38,314 bases of DNA from a virus: positions 1 through 38,314 of IMG/VR virus record IMGVR_UViG_3300031578_000152; one strand, 5' to 3'. A program made the position numbers and the translations under genes. Shown here one piece after another: positions 1,446-38,314 of this stretch; position 1 is the first letter of the stretch; the number at the start of each line of letters is the position of its first letter. Below the pieces are notes generated by a model. It was not told where the DNA came from. It saw only the letters and a program-made list of their open reading frames with translations, and ran no database searches.

Positions 1446-1481
1446 AAAATAACCCCCCTAAACCCTTGTATTTTAGGGGGG
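1443..1481 (-). terminator. Intrinsic terminator after the lysis region
   Basis: Two perfect 10-base arms, CCCCCCTAAA (1453-1462) and TTTAGGGGGG (1472-1481), form a stem. On the minus strand it is followed by TTATTTTTT. It would end the late transcript after the lysis genes and before the HNH gene. Confidence 0.85.
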
Positions 1482-3506: not shown

Positions 3507-4106
3507 TTATATCGAATAGAACCCAGAACCAACCAAGAACTGACCATCACCAGCAAGGTCAGCTGCTACGAGTTGAGTTAATGTGTTCTGGCGACGTAGG
3601 TATATCACATTGTCTGTCACTATAGCACCCATCGGAATATACGCTATATTACTAACCGCAAAAGAGATACCCGTTTCATTTGCAGGAACAAACGGTAATC
3701 CTGTTATAGTTACAGCATTACTTGTCGTTCCACCAACTGCTGTAGTAGTAATAGTAAATGTAATAAAAACTATCTTTCCGATTTTGACGTATGTGCCATT
3801 CTGATTAGTGTAAGTAAATTCTGCGCCTGTAGATGTATAAGCAGGTGTCCACGTTTCTTCTTTATAATCATCTAATGTATTTGCATCAGCAGAGGGAACT
3901 TGAATAGCAGGAAAAGTAACTTTAGTAATTTTTCCTCCACTAGAGCCATCTTTGGGGTATAAATCATCTCTTTTGCTATGACCTAATAAATCACCCAGAT
4001 CATCAAGTATTTGCCGAACCTCATTGGTATCTTCCAGGGCATCGGATTTGTCAGGAGTAATAACTCTAAAACCTTCTCCCGATTCCTGGGTAAATTTATA
4101 TGGCAT
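3507..4106 (-). CDS. Tail fibre or tail tip protein
   Basis: The 199-residue protein has a short N-terminal region with a helical stretch (about residues 27-43). A beta-rich C-terminal domain begins at LDDYKEETWTPAY, followed by YTNQNGTYVKIGKIVFI. That DDY-x-EGTWTP plus Y-x-K-GK/V pattern is common at the receptor-binding end of phage tail fibres and tailspikes. It is likely exposed on the virion and contacts the host surface. The gene lies downstream of the tail genes and upstream of lysis, the normal place for a fibre. A terminator element and the lipoprotein gene separate it from the hub genes. The start ATG has an AGGTGATAATT site. Confidence 0.7.
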   Translation of the reverse strand: MPYKFTQESGEGFRVITPDKSDALEDTNEVRQILDDLGDLLGHSKRDDLYPKDGSSGGKITKVTFPAIQVPSADANTLDDYKEETWTPAYTSTGAEFTYTNQNGTYVKIGKIVFITFTITTTAVGGTTSNAVTITGLPFVPANETGISFAVSNIAYIPMGAIVTDNVIYLRRQNTLTQLVAADLAGDGQFLVGSGFYSI

Positions 4107-4133
4107 AAATTATCACCTCATTTCTTATTTAAT

Positions 4134-4201
4134 AAAAAAGCCAGACTTAAAAGGTCAAAAACCTTTTTAAAATCTGGCAATCTAGTTGCTCTCGGTTTAT
4201 T
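4134..4201 (-). terminator. Box-plus-terminator element, copy 1
   Basis: Minus strand: the box AATAAACCGAGAGC (4201 to 4188) is followed about 9 bases later by a hairpin with GCCAGA (4173-4178) and TCTGGC (4140-4145), a further A/T-rich inner stem, then UUUUUU. It sits 38 bases after the lipoprotein stop. The same box precedes terminators at 23048, 25290 and 27253. Confidence 0.8.
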
Positions 4202-4239
4202 TAATTTTAAATTTCTTTAATTATAAAAATTTCTGCAAT

Positions 4240-20739: not shown

Positions 20740-22764
20740 TTATTTGACTCTGCCCGTAATATAACCTAATTTTTTATTAAGATGTTCCTTTATGCTTTTA
20801 TTACTTTCTTCAAATGTTTTTTCAATAATTTCTTTTAATTTTGTTTCATCTATTCCTTTATCTACCATTACATCATCTATATCACTGACTTCTATATCGA
20901 TTCCTGTATCGTCATCTTTAATATCTTTTGTATCCTCAATCTCCAAACTATCTTCTTCAATAGGTTCAGCAGAATCCAGTACATTTTGAATCTTAGCTTG
21001 AGCATCTTTTAAGTCTTGCTTATTCCTTTTGTTCAAGACTGCTCCAGCCTTCAATTCGAGTTCTTTGTTTTCGTTTTCTAATTTATCGACCTTTTCTTTT
21101 AATTCTTTATTTTCCTTAACAATCTCATATATCTCATTAGGATTAAAACTCTTATTTTGTTCTTCTTGTTCCTCTGATTTGGGAAATATCTTTTTTAATT
21201 CATTTTTACTTTCTTCGATATTGTCTTTATCTATAATCATAAATCTATAATCATTTTCATTATAATAATCTATCTTTTCTTCCCAAGTTTCTTTATGACC
21301 ATATTCTTTCCTTAATTCTCCCATCCCATCAATTTCTACCCATAAACTATTACCATCACTATTAATTAAAACAAAATCACAAGTCCAATATCGTTCTTTA
21401 CAAACTCTTACCTGAATATTATGCTTTATTCCTTCCTTATATAACCAATCATCGAATATTCCTTCAAATTTACTCTGAACGATATGCCCATCATTACATT
21501 CTGTCTGATATCCACCAAATCTATTTAATCTACCATTTTCAAGAGCTTCTAATTGAGCTTCACTCAATTGATTATCTTTATTAAGATTTTTTATAAATTC
21601 CCTATTTCCTTTATAAAAACATTCTCTTGAACAATATATCCGTGGACGATTGGGATTATAATTAAATTCCTTATTACATATAAGGCAAATTCCTATTTCT
21701 TTTTCAATTTCCATAGATTCATTGTGGCATTTTTTAGAACAATACTTTTGATTATTCCCCTTTCTATAAACTTCAAAAATTTCTCCGCATTGTTCGCAAA
21801 TTCTTTTTTCTTTTCCACCTTTATATTGAGGATGATTCTCACCGCTATTTAATTGAGATAAATATTTATATCCACATTTAGTTGAACAAGTTTTCCTATT
21901 AGCGCTTGGAGAATCCATAAAATATTTACCACAAATAACACATTGATAGATTATACTTTTACCATGTTTTCGCACCCATTCTTGTGCAGAAGATAGAGTC
22001 CATCCTTTACCTTTATCAAAAATATATTTCTGCACATGGGTTGAGCCTTGTGGATCTGATTTGAGTTTTCCAATTACTGCCTTAATTCCTTTCTTGGCAT
22101 CTATGTCAATCGTTCTAAATGAATCTTTTACGAAATCTGCTGCTGACCTTACCGGGATATGGATAAACTCGTCAGTTTCTTCGGGCTTTAGAATTATTTC
22201 TTTTTCATCTTCTTCAATCTCGATAAACCCGGCTTCTTTTAATGTATCAATATTGATACCCTTTGCTACCATATTGGTTAAGGCTTCAGGATTTGAAGGC
22301 ACTGCACAAGCCGAAAATTCTAATAGTTCCCATGATTTAATTCTCCTACCTCCTCGTCTTATGCTATCTTCTCCACCTTTGCCCCCATTATCCTCATCAA
22401 CAATATCCTCAGTCTTAATAGGTATAAATCCGATACTCCAGGCTCGCATAAATTTACCTTTATATAATCTATGAACTATATCAGCTAAAGGATAATCGCC
22501 TTCTGGTGGAAATATTACCTTTGCTTTAATATCATCATCAGTCTTGACTAAATTTTCAGCTTTACCAATAGGCAATCCTCTATAATCATGAGCCATAAGC
22601 ACGACAGGATTTTTGCGATAATTAGTCAGCTTTGCTCCTTTGGCTTCTACAATATCGCCATCCCTGTCTACTGCAGTCGTAGTAATAGTTACCTCAAAGG
22701 CTCTTTCGCCTTCAACTTCTTTTGTTTCTGCATCATAAGTCTTTATCATTATTTCTTCTGGCAT
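20740..22764 (-). CDS. Prohead protease with XkdF-like domain, inserted nuclease and scaffold tail
   Basis: The 674-residue protein is far longer than the usual 200-400. Residues 1-170 are HK97 prohead protease, with the likely His in LMAHDYRG and Ser in LEFSACAVPSNPEAL. Residues about 200-272 match the XkdF-like region (HIPVRSAADFV, KGWTLSSAQEWVRKHGKS). Residues 275-530 are foreign: three zinc fingers of the CxxC...CxxxC type, then a PD-(D/E)XK nuclease (QSKFEGIFDDWLY, RYWTCDFVLI, WVEIDGMG). The rest is an acidic coiled coil that probably serves as scaffold. No intein splice residues are seen. The start is set by GAGGTGATAAAT. The protein should still mature the head. Confidence 0.88.
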   Translation of the reverse strand: MPEEIMIKTYDAETKEVEGERAFEVTITTTAVDRDGDIVEAKGAKLTNYRKNPVVLMAHDYRGLPIGKAENLVKTDDDIKAKVIFPPEGDYPLADIVHRLYKGKFMRAWSIGFIPIKTEDIVDEDNGGKGGEDSIRRGGRRIKSWELLEFSACAVPSNPEALTNMVAKGINIDTLKEAGFIEIEEDEKEIILKPEETDEFIHIPVRSAADFVKDSFRTIDIDAKKGIKAVIGKLKSDPQGSTHVQKYIFDKGKGWTLSSAQEWVRKHGKSIIYQCVICGKYFMDSPSANRKTCSTKCGYKYLSQLNSGENHPQYKGGKEKRICEQCGEIFEVYRKGNNQKYCSKKCHNESMEIEKEIGICLICNKEFNYNPNRPRIYCSRECFYKGNREFIKNLNKDNQLSEAQLEALENGRLNRFGGYQTECNDGHIVQSKFEGIFDDWLYKEGIKHNIQVRVCKERYWTCDFVLINSDGNSLWVEIDGMGELRKEYGHKETWEEKIDYYNENDYRFMIIDKDNIEESKNELKKIFPKSEEQEEQNKSFNPNEIYEIVKENKELKEKVDKLENENKELELKAGAVLNKRNKQDLKDAQAKIQNVLDSAEPIEEDSLEIEDTKDIKDDDTGIDIEVSDIDDVMVDKGIDETKLKEIIEKTFEESNKSIKEHLNKKLGYITGRVK

Positions 22765-22769
22765 ATTTA

Positions 22770-23030
22770 TCACCTCACTTTCAAAAATATTTGTTTATTT
22801 GGAACTCCACTTCCACCTTGAGGTGGATTATTATTATCTAACAATGTAACATCCCATTTTATTCCTGTGCAATAACCTCCACACCCAAAACGACCTTCTG
22901 CAATATAATATTGATCTCCGAAATCACATTTATCAGACAATTTACAATGATTCCTATCCCAAAACATTGGTTTGAAATCTTTGCAATCTATCCCCGGTTT
23001 AGGTTTTTTCCCTTTATTTTTAAAAGCCAT
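22770..23030 (-). CDS. Small Cys-rich head-region protein
   Basis: The 86-residue protein has a basic start (KNKGKKPKPG) and six Cys residues in IDCKDF, HCKLSDKCDFG, GRFGCGGYCTG. It probably binds zinc or iron, or is disulphide-linked. Similar short Cys-rich proteins sit near portal genes in other phages, but I cannot name a family. It lies just before the protease gene and after a terminator element, so it opens a transcript of head genes. Confidence 0.6.
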   Translation of the reverse strand: MAFKNKGKKPKPGIDCKDFKPMFWDRNHCKLSDKCDFGDQYYIAEGRFGCGGYCTGIKWDVTLLDNNNPPQGGSGVPNKQIFLKVR

Positions 23031-23047: not shown

Positions 23048-23117
23048 AAAAAAAAGAGCCATCAAAGAAGTCTATTACAACTTCTTAAAATGGCTCTCAA
23101 GGGGCTCTCGGATTATT
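23048..23117 (-). terminator. Box-plus-terminator element, copy 2
   Basis: Minus strand: the box AATAATCCGAGAGC (23117 to 23104), then a hairpin with GAGCCAT (arm 23090-23096) and ATGGCTC (arm 23056-23062) plus an inner GAAG/CTTC stem, then U8. It lies between the small membrane protein gene and the Cys-rich gene. Confidence 0.85.
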
Positions 23118-23135
23118 TAATTTTAATTAATTAAT

Positions 23136-23283: not shown

Positions 23284-25260
23284 TTATTCTAAATATGGCA
23301 ATATTACACATCTGCAATTACAATGGAGGGGCGGCGAATCTACCCCACCACTAAAACTATCATGTAGTTTAACTACTTCTTTATGCATTGCCGAACATTC
23401 ATCACAAGTCCGTTCATCAGCAGCACAATACCATTCCTTTTTCTCTATTACTCCCGACTGGTCATAAGCCTGTAATGCTCCCTGATTACTGGCTGCAATA
23501 GTCTCAGTTCTGGCTATTTTAATAGCTCTTGAACCTTTTGCCTCATCATAAACAGCACTTACCCTGCTGGCAAGTTTAGGAATGCTTTCCCCTGCTTCAA
23601 TCCCTTCAGCTAAAGTCTTTCTCAACTTATCTTTTGTGGTATCTAATATATCTTTAATTAAATTCCCGCATCTCTTTTTAATCCATTTTACCACATTGGG
23701 ATTAGTAACGTCAAAACTTATCTCTACGCCCAATTCAGCCATAGCGGCAGTTCCATTTATCTCAACAGTTTCGGTTATTCTCGGTAAGGTAAATTCGGTA
23801 AATTTCATTATCTCTCGCTCATCATGGGTAATCCTTAATACGTCATCAATATCTTTTGTGATTGCTTTACCTTTCCGTAAAGCTCGCAATGCTCTTAATT
23901 CCTGTTCTTGAAATAGTTTAATTATTCCTCTCTTAAAATTATTTTCAAGTGGGGTAACTCGCTTAATAAAAACTTCCCAGTATTTGTCTTTATACTCCTG
24001 AGGTAGTTCTTTCTTAATAATAGCTTTTGCTGATTCTTCTTCTCCATTGCCACCATTACCAGATAACGGCATAATATTAAATGGCACGAGTGGGACTGTA
24101 CCCCAGGGGACCTCATCACGCCCATCTTCTACCCTTGCCTCATTAGGAGTAATTACAAAAGTCTTTAAATCAATTTCTCTTTTCTTTAATAAAAATGCCT
24201 CATCAACCGGAACAGGATTATCAAACTCACAATGCAGGCCATCCTCTTTATAAAGCGGTATTAAAAAAGTATTGAATATTTCGGCAATCCTGATAAGTCT
24301 TGGTAGAATACATTCCCTATTCCATGCTGTATCTAAGGCCTGCATATTAGCTAAATTAGTCTGCTCCGGATGGGACAGCTTCTGCGGTGGGGTATGATAA
24401 GCACTTGCTAACTGTCTCATAGTCCATTCGGCTAATAACATAAATTCCATATCCTTGTTAGACATACCAATAGTTTTAAGTTTCAAACCACCCACTAAAA
24501 CCCCCGTTTTATTTACATTTTCTATCCCACCATAAGTCTGCTCAAATAAGGTCAAAATCTTTTTGGCTTGTTCGGGTTCTAAGTTCGCATCTGTTTCCAA
24601 AATTTGTTTTAGGTGGGCTCCATTTTTAAATACATTTAGCTGATAAATCATATTATATTTATCGGTATCGTAAGCATAGGCCTTCCTCTGGACTGGAGAA
24701 GCCCCTCTATATGGGTCAGTAGGACTGGGATATCTGAAATATAAAATATCTTCTCTGGGATAAGTAATTTCTCTCGTCCCTTCTAAGTATTTATAATTTT
24801 CAATAATTCCTTTATTTACTTTCGGAGTCATCTTTTCGGGACTCCTAAAAAATAATTCTCTCGGTATGCCTAACCTGTCTTTAAGCATTAATATGTAACA
24901 TTCGCCGGTTAGATCTTGATAAATAGAAATAAATTCCTTGCCCATAAACTTAGTAGTATCGGGATTAAAATGATTTAAGAGGTCATAGAAGGGATGTTCG
25001 TCAATCAACTCATCATCCTTGTTATATAATTTTAAGGGAATTGAGGCTATTCTTTCGGCAATTAAGGATACACAATCACCCACCCAACCCTGATAAGCCT
25101 TAATCTGCTCCGATGTATTCCTGAAAGTATTTTCAGAATATAAAGAAGTAGACTCATTAGGCCAGTATCGGGAATCATTAATTCTTGAAATCTCGCTTGA
25201 TTTAGTTAAATTTACATCAAAATTTAATCTTCGTTTAGCAAATTGAATATCTACTTTTAT
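23284..25260 (-). CDS. Portal protein fused to a MuF domain; probable ATA start
   Basis: The 658-residue protein joins two usually separate proteins. Residues 1-430 match the HK97-type portal (YQGWVGDCVSLIAERIA, EHPFYDLL, YFRYPSPTDPYRGASP, TNLANMQALDTAW). Residues about 510-658 match the Mu gpF/SPP1 gp7 domain (IARTETIAASNQGAL, CAADERTCDECSAMH, PPLHCNCRC). It forms the 12-mer DNA channel, and MuF probably rides with it. The frame has no ATG, GTG or TTG after AAAGGGGGTGGTG (about 25264-25276). ATA at 25260 fits the spacing, and the only upstream choice is a TTG inside the terminator hairpin. A strong promoter and terminator element precede it. Confidence 0.88.
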   Translation of the reverse strand: MKVDIQFAKRRLNFDVNLTKSSEISRINDSRYWPNESTSLYSENTFRNTSEQIKAYQGWVGDCVSLIAERIASIPLKLYNKDDELIDEHPFYDLLNHFNPDTTKFMGKEFISIYQDLTGECYILMLKDRLGIPRELFFRSPEKMTPKVNKGIIENYKYLEGTREITYPREDILYFRYPSPTDPYRGASPVQRKAYAYDTDKYNMIYQLNVFKNGAHLKQILETDANLEPEQAKKILTLFEQTYGGIENVNKTGVLVGGLKLKTIGMSNKDMEFMLLAEWTMRQLASAYHTPPQKLSHPEQTNLANMQALDTAWNRECILPRLIRIAEIFNTFLIPLYKEDGLHCEFDNPVPVDEAFLLKKREIDLKTFVITPNEARVEDGRDEVPWGTVPLVPFNIMPLSGNGGNGEEESAKAIIKKELPQEYKDKYWEVFIKRVTPLENNFKRGIIKLFQEQELRALRALRKGKAITKDIDDVLRITHDEREIMKFTEFTLPRITETVEINGTAAMAELGVEISFDVTNPNVVKWIKKRCGNLIKDILDTTKDKLRKTLAEGIEAGESIPKLASRVSAVYDEAKGSRAIKIARTETIAASNQGALQAYDQSGVIEKKEWYCAADERTCDECSAMHKEVVKLHDSFSGGVDSPPLHCNCRCVILPYLE

Positions 25261-25289
25261 GGTATCACCACCCCCTTTGTATATATAAC

Positions 25290-25356
25290 AAAAAAAAGCC
25301 AAAAACAAAATCGGTTAAGATTTCACTTTTGGCTTTCTGGAAGCTCTCAGATTATT
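25290..25356 (-). terminator. Box-plus-terminator element, copy 3, directly behind a promoter
   Basis: Minus strand: the box AATAATCTGAGAGC (25356 to 25343), then the stem AGCCAAAA (25334-25327) with TTTTGGCT (25304-25297), then U7. A promoter lies only about 10 bases before the box, so the RNA would start with the box and end about 65-70 bases later unless the polymerase reads through into the portal gene. Confidence 0.85.
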
Positions 25357-25366
25357 CTTTTTAAAT

Positions 25367-25395
25367 ATTTTAACAAACTAATTTGTTTTTGTCAA
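25367..25395 (-). promoter_or_regulatory. Strong promoter upstream of the portal gene
   Basis: A perfect TTGACA (25390-25395), a 17-base spacer and TAAAAT (25367-25372, one base off). It lies just upstream of the TerL stop. The predicted start near 25360 places the GAGAGC box at the 5' end of the transcript. Confidence 0.8.
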
Positions 25396-25398
25396 ATA

Positions 25399-26697
25399 TC
25401 ATTTTGAGACATAAAAATTAGGTTCTTGTACTTCTTCTAACATCAATTCAGTTATCAGCCAAACTAAAGCGTCAAGCCTATCTGGTGATTTATCCCCTGG
25501 CACCCACTCGCAAAGCTGATCTTCTAAGTCTGGAAAGTTTCCCACATGATGGATTTTCCCTTGTTCATATAGGGCACTTACTGGCTCAGCTCTTATATAT
25601 TTTCCCCTACTGGCCCGGACTGCCTTAAATGATACATTTTTGTCTATGGTATGAATTACATATTCCACCATATCGCCACCATTATTGACTTCTCCTATTA
25701 TCCGGTCAGCATTAAATTTATGATATTCGCTTATTGCAGCATTGCCCCATTTATCTGGACTCCCTTTGATCGTGCCATCGCTTAATATCCAACCATGATT
25801 ATCTTTGCATATACCACCAACTACTATCCCAGTTTCAGAAGACATTTCATTGTCAGTAGCTTCTGGATCAACTGCTACAACTATCCTGACTAAATCAGGA
25901 TGTTTGTTTCTCCTGTTATCTTCAATAATCTTCCTGGTCCACAAGGCATCGGGATTATCCTCTAAGAACTGGCCATGAATCTCCTGCCTTCCCAGTCTTG
26001 TACCTTCATATTTTTTAATGATATAATCAAAATATCTCTGGGGCAAATTGTCTTTATTTTCGTAAGTGCTGCCGGGGACATCTACGGTATCAGGATCATC
26101 TTTTAATTCTTTGAGAATGGGGATAGGCCGGGGGGTAGTGGTAATCAAAATTCTTATATCCTCTCTATTCCTTAAACCAAATTGAAGGTTATCCCATACC
26201 GCCTGGGGGTATTTGAATTTAGCCAACTCATCAATCCAGGCAATATCATGAGAAGGACCTCTCACTTGATCCGGTTCATCTCCTGAATAGATAGTTCCCA
26301 CGCAACCATTGGGCCAAACTACTCTTCTTTTTGAAGGTTCATATTTAGGCATAAAACCAGGTCTTGAGATTTTTAATATAGAAGCAGGGCCTAACTCTAC
26401 CATCGTATCTCTGGCATCTGCTTTGGTCTCGGCAATTAATGCTATATGTTCAGCCCCCTTCCTGGCCTGATCTATAACATATTCCGAACCTGTCCGGGTC
26501 TTTCCCCAGCCCCTCCCGGTCCTGATCAGCCAGGTCAGCCAATTTCCGGGTGGTGGTAATTGTTTCGGCCTGGCCCATACTTCCCAGTCATATAAAATAT
26601 CTTCGGCTTCTTCTTCAGTCAGGCTGTTTAGTAGTTTGTCCCTTTCCTCTTTTGGCAATGAGGCTATCGAATCTTTCAACGAGTTTCTTTTTGGCAT
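25399..26697 (-). CDS. terL: Terminase large subunit
   Basis: The 432-residue protein has an ATPase with Walker A RTGRGWGKT (about residues 59-67), Walker B IAWIDE (Asp156-Glu157) and the coupling motif LITTTPRP (about 184-191). The C-terminal RNase H-like nuclease has acidic residues Asp277 (VAVDPEA), Glu336 region (IIGEVNNGG), and Asp406/Asp409 (SPDRLDALVW). It pumps DNA into the prohead through the portal and cuts concatemers. The start overlaps the TerS gene by 83 bases. Whether packaging is headful or site-specific cannot be decided from the sequence. Confidence 0.96.
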   Translation of the reverse strand: MPKRNSLKDSIASLPKEERDKLLNSLTEEEAEDILYDWEVWARPKQLPPPGNWLTWLIRTGRGWGKTRTGSEYVIDQARKGAEHIALIAETKADARDTMVELGPASILKISRPGFMPKYEPSKRRVVWPNGCVGTIYSGDEPDQVRGPSHDIAWIDELAKFKYPQAVWDNLQFGLRNREDIRILITTTPRPIPILKELKDDPDTVDVPGSTYENKDNLPQRYFDYIIKKYEGTRLGRQEIHGQFLEDNPDALWTRKIIEDNRRNKHPDLVRIVVAVDPEATDNEMSSETGIVVGGICKDNHGWILSDGTIKGSPDKWGNAAISEYHKFNADRIIGEVNNGGDMVEYVIHTIDKNVSFKAVRASRGKYIRAEPVSALYEQGKIHHVGNFPDLEDQLCEWVPGDKSPDRLDALVWLITELMLEEVQEPNFYVSK

Positions 26698-27235: not shown

Positions 27236-27252
27236 ACAGCACCTTCCTAAAC

Positions 27253-27318
27253 AAAATAGCCAGACTAAAAAGCAATTTCTGCTTTCAAGACTGGCTATCA
27301 AGTAGCTCTCGGATTATT
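27253..27318 (-). terminator. Box-plus-hairpin element, copy 4, overlapping a gene end
   Basis: Minus strand: the box AATAATCCGAGAGC (27318 to 27305) forms the last sense codons (NNPRA) of the Com-like gene. The hairpin ATAGCCAG (27298-27291) with CTGGCTAT (27263-27256) follows its stop and contains an inner AAAGCA/TGCTTT stem. The U-run is weak (UUUUGUUU), so termination may be partial. Confidence 0.75.
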
Positions 27319-27555
27319 TAATTCTTCAATCCTTTCTTTCTTTACTCTATTCCATTCCCCAGGGGTCCCTACAAAAATAAATTCAAGACTTTCCTCCACT
27401 TTCATTTTGCAGGTAACTACATTCATGGTCCTACAGTCAGACCGGGGACAGATTATCTCTAATATCTTCGGCTTGCCGGTAGCAATGTCCATCCCCGGCA
27501 ATCCATCAAAAAGCCTTTTACCACATTTCTTGCACCGTATCCTTATTCCTTTCAT
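27298..27555 (-). CDS. Com-like zinc ribbon protein
   Basis: The 85-residue protein has a zinc ribbon of the Mu Com type: CKKCGKRLFDG near residues 8-18 and CPRSDCRTMNVV near residues 36-47. Com binds mRNA in phage Mu to open the mom start site. Here no mom-like DNA modification gene is adjacent, so a similar RNA-binding role is only a suggestion. Its last codons coincide with the conserved GAGAGC box, which is odd and hints that the RNA element is older than the gene end. It lies just before the packaging genes. Confidence 0.7.
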   Translation of the reverse strand: MKGIRIRCKKCGKRLFDGLPGMDIATGKPKILEIICPRSDCRTMNVVTCKMKVEESLEFIFVGTPGEWNRVKKERIEELNNPRAT

Positions 27556-30564: not shown

Positions 30565-31572
30565 TTAACCTTCCTTTTTTAGGTTATATACTAACCATCC
30601 AGATGGATTATTAATGTTCTCCTTATATTTTAAATCCTCATAATATTTTTCTATTTTACTTGCTGGATATTTTTTAAATATTTCCTCTATAAAACTACCT
30701 TCAAAACAACCTGCCTCCAACATTTCTTTTTTTAATTTCTCTTTTTCTTCTAATGACTTATCCACAATTTCCACAATTTTAGATTCACACAACACATCTC
30801 CTTTTGTATTTGTGTTAGTATTAAGATTAGGATTAGGATTAGGATTAGGATGCGATAGACTACCCATAGCCGACCCATCTTTAGAAGTGTTATTATTATT
30901 AGGTTTTAAGATTAATGGGGTACCCATTTTTTCGGATGGGGTACCCATATTTTCGGATGGGGTACCCATATCCCATCCATTTTTTTCTTTATTCCATCTT
31001 AATCCCGCATTCCGCTTTCCATTACAAGATTGGCATAAAACCCTTAAATTATCTTCATCATTAGTTCCACCCTGAAAAACAGGAATAATATGATCTATTT
31101 CTAAATTATCTTTTGAACCACAAAAACAGCATTTATCATCATACTTCTTTAGTATTTTTTCTCTCAAATTTTTATGTACCTTCTTCCCTTTAAATTCTTT
31201 TTCGGTTGGTTCATAATCTAAAATATCTATGAAATCTATTAATGATTGTGGTACTTTTTTTAGTTCATAAGAAATACCAGCCCTTATTTTTGGATTATCC
31301 TGTTGATAACTTATAAATTTCTTTATAGCTATCCATCCATTTTCATATTTAATTTTATCGTCAGCTTCAAATCTTTCTAATATTTTTATTACCATATCTT
31401 TATCTATACCCGTATCAAAAGCAATTCTATTAATAGATATCTCGTAAATACCTATAATGTTTGTAAGCGTATTGGTTAATAGATACAGGAATAATAGTTT
31501 CTCAACTGGGTCTTTTTCGATTATATAGTTATCATCCCAAAACTTTGTATCTACATAACGCTTTTTGCTCAT
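30565..31572 (-). CDS. Replisome organiser with internal HNH domain
   Basis: The 335-residue protein starts with the winged-helix domain of phage replisome organisers (residues 1-115, KFWDDNYI, PVEKLLFLYLLTN, GIDKDMVIKILERFE). An HNH domain follows at residues 134-187: Cys148-x2-Cys151, LEIDHIIP (Asp160-His161), NLRVLC and Cys180-x2-Cys183. A linker with MGTPSE and NPNP/NTNT repeats leads to a C-terminal helical part ending NPSGWLVYNLKK. It should bind the origin and load host helicase. The HNH may nick DNA or be a captured homing domain. The linker DNA has phased repeats that could be the origin itself. Confidence 0.85.
   Translation of the reverse strand: MSKKRYVDTKFWDDNYIIEKDPVEKLLFLYLLTNTLTNIIGIYEISINRIAFDTGIDKDMVIKILERFEADDKIKYENGWIAIKKFISYQQDNPKIRAGISYELKKVPQSLIDFIDILDYEPTEKEFKGKKVHKNLREKILKKYDDKCCFCGSKDNLEIDHIIPVFQGGTNDEDNLRVLCQSCNGKRNAGLRWNKEKNGWDMGTPSENMGTPSEKMGTPLILKPNNNNTSKDGSAMGSLSHPNPNPNPNLNTNTNTKGDVLCESKIVEIVDKSLEEKEKLKKEMLEAGCFEGSFIEEIFKKYPASKIEKYYEDLKYKENINNPSGWLVYNLKKEG
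30825..30967. repeat. Iteron-like repeats inside the initiator gene, candidate origin
   Basis: GGGTACCC palindromes occur at 30918, 30939 and 30960, exactly 21 bases apart, each within a 21-base unit rich in ATTTTTCGGAT-like sequence. Nearby, GATTAG is repeated four times in tandem (30825-30848). Lambda-like phages place origin iterons in the initiator gene, so this is a candidate origin. The 21-base period also equals 7 codons (MGTPSEN), so protein-level repetition is an alternative cause. Confidence 0.55.
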
Positions 31573-34474: not shown

Positions 34475-35131
34475 TTATAATTCCAGTTGATAATAACTTT
34501 CTTCTTTCCTAAATCTCTCATCTAATTTTTCTAATGTATAATCCATCCTAAATTGCCATTTACTTTGTTCTTGCATTTCAAGTAACTTTTTCCAATAATC
34601 TGGAAAATATAACCATAATGCTTTTAAATCTTTTAACGACTGCAATGGACAATTCCAGCAACTAACCCTATTGTACTTTTCGTATAATCCACCCCAGTCA
34701 AAACCTTTTTCTAAACAATATCTTAGAGCATCATCTTCAGTTACTTTCCAGTCTACCAGTGGGTAACAATAGCCGATTGTCTTTTTGATACGTTTGGCTT
34801 CATCATAACTAAAACCTATCCATTGCGTAAAAGGTTTATGTTGATTACAAAATTTATTTACCGCAGTTCTTTTTTCAGCAGTACACCACCTATTTCTAAA
34901 AGAAGAAAATCCCCACTTACCAAATAATTCTTCAAAACTTCTTTTAGGTTTTAATCTTATAATTTCCCTATCTATATATTTTTCCAATTTATCAATATGC
35001 TCAATCATCTCTGGAAAATCCCAACCTGTATCAAAAAATACAATATGGTCAACCTTGATTTTTTTCTCTATCATCATCAGCAACATTGCTGTGCTATCTT
35101 TACCACCTGAAAGGCTTATTATGTTATTCAT
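34475..35131 (-). CDS. PAPS-reductase/ATP-pyrophosphatase-family enzyme
   Basis: The 218-residue protein has the PP-loop SGGKDST (residues 8-14) that binds ATP-type substrates, then FFDTGWDFPEM. It also has Cys83 in RWCTAEKR, Cys158-x2-Cys161 in SCWNCPLQ and a helical end. Family members reduce PAPS, or activate a carbonyl or sulphur in nucleotide or DNA modification such as phosphorothioation. A CysH role is doubtful because the usual C-terminal ECGLH is absent. The Cys set could hold an iron-sulphur cluster. It lies in the early region with no dnd partner genes, so the substrate is unknown. Confidence 0.8.
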   Translation of the reverse strand: MNNIISLSGGKDSTAMLLMMIEKKIKVDHIVFFDTGWDFPEMIEHIDKLEKYIDREIIRLKPKRSFEELFGKWGFSSFRNRWCTAEKRTAVNKFCNQHKPFTQWIGFSYDEAKRIKKTIGYCYPLVDWKVTEDDALRYCLEKGFDWGGLYEKYNRVSCWNCPLQSLKDLKALWLYFPDYWKKLLEMQEQSKWQFRMDYTLEKLDERFRKEESYYQLEL

Positions 35132-38212: not shown

Positions 38213-38314
38213 TGTAAAATCTCTAAAAAAATGTTACCCGGATACCCGCCACCTATTCAATTGTGGTAATTTAAGGGCATTTGAGTATCATAACGCTTTT
38301 TCCCCTTTTTCATT
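38213..38314. repeat. Terminal direct repeat, copy 2
   Basis: The exact second copy of bases 1-102. In the circular map the XRE gene end is therefore followed by about 160 bases before the first early gene. Confidence 0.95.

Follow-up and report, generated by a model that had tools for sequence, protein, structure and literature searches.

The DNA analysed here (the window, 38,314 nucleotides of viral sequence) has a 102-bp direct terminal repeat at positions 1-102 and 38213-38314, and from this repeat it is probably a complete phage genome, circularly permuted or circular. Its terminase, portal, capsid, tape measure and endolysin genes all run in one direction, and minus is the coding strand of the phage. 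Four short units, elements 1 to 4, lie among these genes, and the features around them are as follows.

27298..27555, minus strand: Com-like zinc-ribbon gene, 85 aa (phrog_6417, "translational regulator", E 1.9e-5; hhalign match to Mu Com)
25399..26697, minus strand: terminase large subunit (phrog_979, E 1e-38), 3′ of element 4
25367..25395, minus strand: sigma-70-like promoter TTGACA-17-TAAAAT, 11/12 consensus matches, TG before the -10
23284..25308, minus strand: portal/minor head fusion (phrog_2662, E 7e-99), 3′ of element 3; these are ORF bounds, with the start codon within
20740..22773, minus strand: capsid/prohead protease gene with an HNH part (phrog_80, phrog_617, phrog_1271), 3′ of element 2
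3507..4106, minus strand: tail-fibre-like gene (phrog_28473, E 2e-5), directly 3′ of element 1

Each element contains an exact copy of a box, AATAAWCYGAGAGC. The four copies are all on the minus strand, with starts at 4201, 23117, 25356 and 27318; allowing up to two mismatches gives 5 matches in total in the window, against 1.37 expected and a maximum of 4 in 100 shuffles. Much as originally noted for these intergenic sites, every exact copy is followed by a GC-based hairpin and then a U-run, which by sequence is an intrinsic terminator; no exact copy in the window lacks the hairpin. The conserved unit extends past the box as NNC-N2/3-GA-NN-GCC. Since the terminator hairpin (P2) starts at the GA beyond the box, the box belongs, as one of the two strands, to another hairpin, P1. 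The P1 stem is formed by GAGAGC-NN-C-NN-GA-NN-GC, so that the box pairs with the 5′ arm of P2. The elements and their hairpins, with scores of the covariance model R1 described below, are:

27251..27325, minus strand: element 4 (AT-rich leader, box, P1, terminator), exact box, 79.9 bits, before the terminase genes
27293..27308, minus strand: P1 of element 4, GA-GCTA-C-TT-GA-TAGC-C, perfect Com motif
27255..27299, minus strand: P2 terminator of element 4, -22.5 kcal/mol, before the terminase genes
25290..25363, minus strand: element 3 (terminase-portal junction), exact box, 74.4 bits
25331..25346, minus strand: P1 of element 3, GA-GCTT-C-CA-GA-AAGC-C, perfect Com motif
25294..25337, minus strand: P2 terminator of element 3, before the portal gene
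23050..23124, minus strand: element 2 (portal-capsid junction), exact box, 91.7 bits
23092..23107, minus strand: P1 of element 2, GA-GCCC-C-TT-GA-GAGC-C, one C.A mismatch
23054..23098, minus strand: P2 terminator of element 2, -23.0 kcal/mol
4132..4208, minus strand: element 1 (before the tail-fibre and lysis genes), exact box, 70.3 bits
4176..4191, minus strand: P1 of element 1, GA-GCAA-C-TA-GA-TTGC-C, perfect Com motif
4140..4178, minus strand: P2 terminator of element 1, -18.1 kcal/mol

We gathered related loci from viral contigs by the box pattern and by the portal or terminase protein and obtained more than 100, of which roughly half are close. In many of these relatives the element is found by a covariance model built on the terminator stem and the box, mostly at 40-90 bits, and a tight element pattern scanned over viral contigs without protein information gave 65 stretches. 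Pattern matches in cellular genomes (20 cases) were rejected as chance-like sequence with weak covariance model scores, and so no host was found. Rfam families, including the skipping-rope motif that the original prediction had named as an example to search, gave 0 matches at the gathering score in the window and 15 relatives. An AT-rich stretch, AAAATTAAATAA, is conserved within about 15 nt 5′ of each P1 in the window and the relatives; it is dispensable for P1 and P2. We also considered the box as a late-promoter element and set this aside, as the distance from box to -10 differs between relatives.

P1 is a 4-bp hairpin of the form GA-[4 nt]-C-N2/3-GA-[4 nt]-C, with a loop of 5-6 nt that is longer in some relatives. 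Its pairing is well kept: 94% of cells are paired, with 13 two-sided changes against 3.9 in shuffles (a count reached by 0 of 500), and sliding the alignment lowers pairing far at every slide. Among 13 distinct P1 stems, 9 are fully paired where permutation expects 3.0 (p about 5e-5); these covariation counts treat related sequences as independent, so their significance is overstated. A compensatory swap is seen directly, with GCGT/ACGC in one group of relatives and ACGC/GCGT in another, and the constant bases GA, C, GA and C are kept in 29 of 29 distinct sites. One P1 mismatch is present in element 2 and in several relatives. The box had first been described as constant beside a variable hairpin, but this does not hold: in relatives the box varies, its last bases changing jointly with the hairpin arm as the two strands of a second stem.

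The P2 stem pairs covary as well, and the four P2 hairpins are four of the five strongest predicted terminators on the transcribed strand of the window. One strand serves both hairpins, as 3′ strand in P1 and as 5′ arm in P2, so the two are mutually exclusive. When P1 is forced in folding, the base of P2 is lost, and in element 3 the residual stem still ends near the U-run. We scanned for elements with a pattern that left the box base, the arm base and the terminator 3′-arm base free to mismatch, and the 53 distinct elements recovered read either C-G-C (40) or A-T-A (13) at these positions, with no disagreement. Pairing of the box with the terminator 3′ arm was tried and rejected: 90% of cells pair, with covariation not above shuffles. 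P1 by itself is weak, at about -2 to -4 kcal/mol, whereas the unconstrained fold of the element has -19 to -25, so that any control through P1 would need tight, fast protein binding. Another strong terminator of the window, CCCCCCTAAAATACAAGGGTTTAGGGGGG at 1453-1481 (minus strand), has no Com site.

A candidate for such a protein is encoded upstream of all four sites. The 85-aa product is a small C4 zinc ribbon, CxxC...C(P)xC, with the cysteines kept in all relatives except one ORF cut by a contig end, and its structure model is a small beta ribbon with a mean pLDDT of 79. In hhalign, it matches Mu Com with a probability of 95.9%, an E-value of 6e-9 and 52% identity over 29 columns. The best match for all six homologs is phrog_6417, and a profile of the homologs built without Mu Com finds Mu Com back weakly (E 0.012). 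In Pfam PF10122, five homologs score 11.0-18.1 bits, below the gathering score of 22.9, and the window protein has no match; that score is a curated cut-off rather than a biological feature, and other profiles match. Among annotated phages, tblastn with the window Com gave no match, and the element region has no DNA relatives. In three loci, L045, L227 and L241, the Com variant is longer and has extra residues inserted between the first cysteines. CxxC ORFs located after the portal gene in L024 and L035, and in L022, proved not to be Com. A cultured Bacillota phage, Anaerostipes phage AC844P2, has an unannotated Com-like ORF (L277:3001-3150) and no perfect Com hairpin 3′ of it.

To our knowledge, Com is known only from one gene pair, com-mom, as a translational activator. 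The RNA motif selected in vitro by the Com zinc finger is GAGNNCC-N2/3-GAGNNCC, reported as NGAGNNCC(N)2-3GAGNNCCNN (PMC6483171). The constant bases of P1 (GA 5′ of the stem, C and GA in the loop, C on the 3′ side) are those of this SELEX motif and of the Com target in mom RNA, and the site in the Mu com-mom overlap reads GA-ATGC-C-TGC-GA-GCAT-C. This literature-derived motif has 3 perfect matches in the window, all of them in elements, against 0.2 in shuffles; element 2 differs by one mismatch. The com stop codon falls in the P1 loop of element 4, and in L092, L208 and L188 an element likewise lies directly 3′ of com. The same placement is seen in Proteobacteria phages and plasmids with an annotated or clear Com, where the site stands at the com 3′ end, mostly beside DNA-modification genes (Mu, B3, JD024, Mcat3, Mana, TJ1, Phipami28 and a Pantoea plasmid; background, 6 in 422 kb). 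The genes after the four elements of the window are not mom; they are terminase-region, portal, capsid and tail-fibre genes.

These observations point to an RNA switch as the probable role of the box element, one by which the virion genes come on late in infection, and we think it likely that each element is a Com-controlled antiterminator/terminator switch. We infer the following sequence of events from the DNA. The nascent RNA can fold P1, a hairpin of the kind that zinc-ribbon proteins of the Com family bind. With no protein present, P2 would win and transcription would stop before the next gene block. The Com homolog would bind and hold P1, the lower part of P2 could then not form, and RNA polymerase would read on. 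One site would gate the terminase, one, with its own promoter, the portal, one the capsid, and one the tail-fibre and lysis genes. With com placed first and a site before each of these blocks, the layout suggests a Com that is produced early, or constitutively, and gives access to the virion genes by antitermination. The low stability of P1 is in keeping with transcription that stops unless the protein is there to allow read-through. A further level of control could come from ribosomes that translate com through the P1 loop of element 4. An attenuator or antitermination site for the portal and head genes, as originally proposed, is supported, and the protein that was imagined to bind there and act on termination now has a candidate in the phage itself, the Com homolog.

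Several points count against the switch: the low stability of P1, its single mismatch in element 2 and several relatives, the residual stem near the U-run in element 3, and the Pfam scores below the cut-off. In addition, known Com regulates translation, not termination. Our literature search, with coverage short of most subscription journals, found no paper linking Com to termination. Com might bind P1 as it does in Mu and control translation or mRNA stability of the next gene, the terminators being ordinary. In its known role Com activates mom translation (PMC6483171), its site overlaps the start of the next gene in Proteobacteria phages, and a ribosome-binding site lies within a few tens of bases 3′ of every element. 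However, this ribosome-binding site is 3′ of the U-run and unpaired in P2, the arm taken by P1 belongs to the terminator, and every element has a U-run. We regard control at translation or stability as unlikely.

A host factor such as NusA or NusG could bind the element, or a lambda-type nut site could load a processive antiterminator, Com being incidental; the box does lie just 5′ of terminators, where such factors could contact the RNA. But the presence of Com tracks the element. Among contigs of at least 30 kb, taken from the tight-pattern scan and from the loci gathered before it, a Com homolog is present in 12 of 12 that bear the element and in 0 of 14 controls. The Fisher p for this co-occurrence, computed with 13 controls, is about 2e-7, and the association is weaker than this value says, since 5 of the 12 element-bearing contigs contributed rows to the search profile and 2 are Moraxella prophages (L249, L257) whose pattern match is doubtful and may be chance. 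Terminators without the box in relatives, which the original prediction took as evidence against itself, did not overturn it: in contigs with enough coverage, relatives have the element and com together or neither. Against the switch, three short contigs (L196, L197, L200) have com and no element. In its favour, besides the co-occurrence, is the gene order: at 28 com-bearing loci, every element found is downstream of com on the same strand and none is upstream; the scan was crude and missed some known elements, which are also downstream. As for the host factor, the bases that never vary coincide with the Com motif, and each terminator has a site of its own, which a processive system would not need. 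Given these points and the tracking of the element by Com, a host factor or a nut-type system is quite improbable.

We give even less credit to the box being a double-stranded DNA operator, similar to a stoperator, for a phage repressor beside terminators. The sites are asymmetric, in a single orientation and in short intergenic gaps, and one of them overlaps the start site predicted for a promoter; against this, box and hairpin arm change in a compensatory way, as RNA pairing would predict and a DNA site would not, and the hairpin accompanies every exact copy in the window.

The promoter in question, 25395-25367, was predicted as near-perfect and about 10 bases before the box of element 3, and this is accurate: it has 11/12 matches, sits 10 nt 5′ of the box, with its predicted start site overlapped by this copy, and is kept at the terminase-portal junction of most relatives. 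Some of these junctions have an element between the promoter and the ribosome-binding site; others have the promoter alone. A short RNA product, also foreseen originally, is possible for this copy and not for the others, as elements 1, 2 and 4 have no such promoter directly 5′. We consider it very improbable that this promoter, strong and conserved, and the terminator some 70 nt further along together yield a short stable RNA acting in trans, given those three elements and the many relatives that keep the promoter without the element.

The Com-controlled switch has relatives among known systems. With Mu com-mom it shares a zinc-ribbon Com, an RNA site GA-[4 bp]-C-N2/3-GA-[4 bp]-C at or near the com end, and overlap of the site with an inhibitory hairpin. 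In Mu, however, this hairpin is a translation-inhibition stem-loop at the start codon, whereas in the present phage it is an intrinsic terminator, with several sites per genome and virion genes, not mom, as targets. As in the BglG/SacY/LicT RAT systems, the 5′ arm of the terminator lies in a hairpin that excludes the terminator, and stabilization by a protein is proposed here too. The RNA-binding domain there is of the BglG type, unlike the Com zinc ribbon, 4-bp stem and 5-6-nt loop found here, and our scan of window proteins, which was not dedicated to it, showed no BglG-type (CAT) RNA-binding protein. As in lambda N-nut and Q late-gene antitermination, a phage protein is proposed to let transcription into late genes, but with a local site at every terminator in place of one loading site.

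Com-controlled antitermination of virion genes would be new, joining a known protein-RNA pair to a known switch logic. The site grammar is found again, along with a Com homolog, in dozens of viral contigs; there it is joined to terminators and, in the cases examined, stands before virion genes rather than mom. There is perhaps an even chance that a large group of uncultured phages uses Com zinc ribbons as master antiterminators for the virion genes, with several P1-terminator switches per genome downstream of com, and that the Mu mom switch is a single application of a wider Com-hairpin control. If the switch reading is right, an otherwise obscure protein family would gain a function, RNA-switch antitermination would gain a new protein class in a compact single-protein switch, and regulons of unknown phages could be predicted from sequence.

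Several other features drew our attention. L035, L033 and L034 carry an insert of a few hundred nt 5′ of the portal gene, GGTCTCGTGG...CGAGACC, with complementary ends, the start of which is also seen in L022; it had no Rfam match in L035 or L022. In the window, an HNH endonuclease part is found both in the capsid/protease ORF (20740-22773, minus strand) and in a DnaD-like ORF (30565-31572, minus strand), and these are possibly inteins or in-frame homing insertions. The early region contains a phosphoadenosine phosphosulfate reductase-like gene at 34475-35131 (minus strand).
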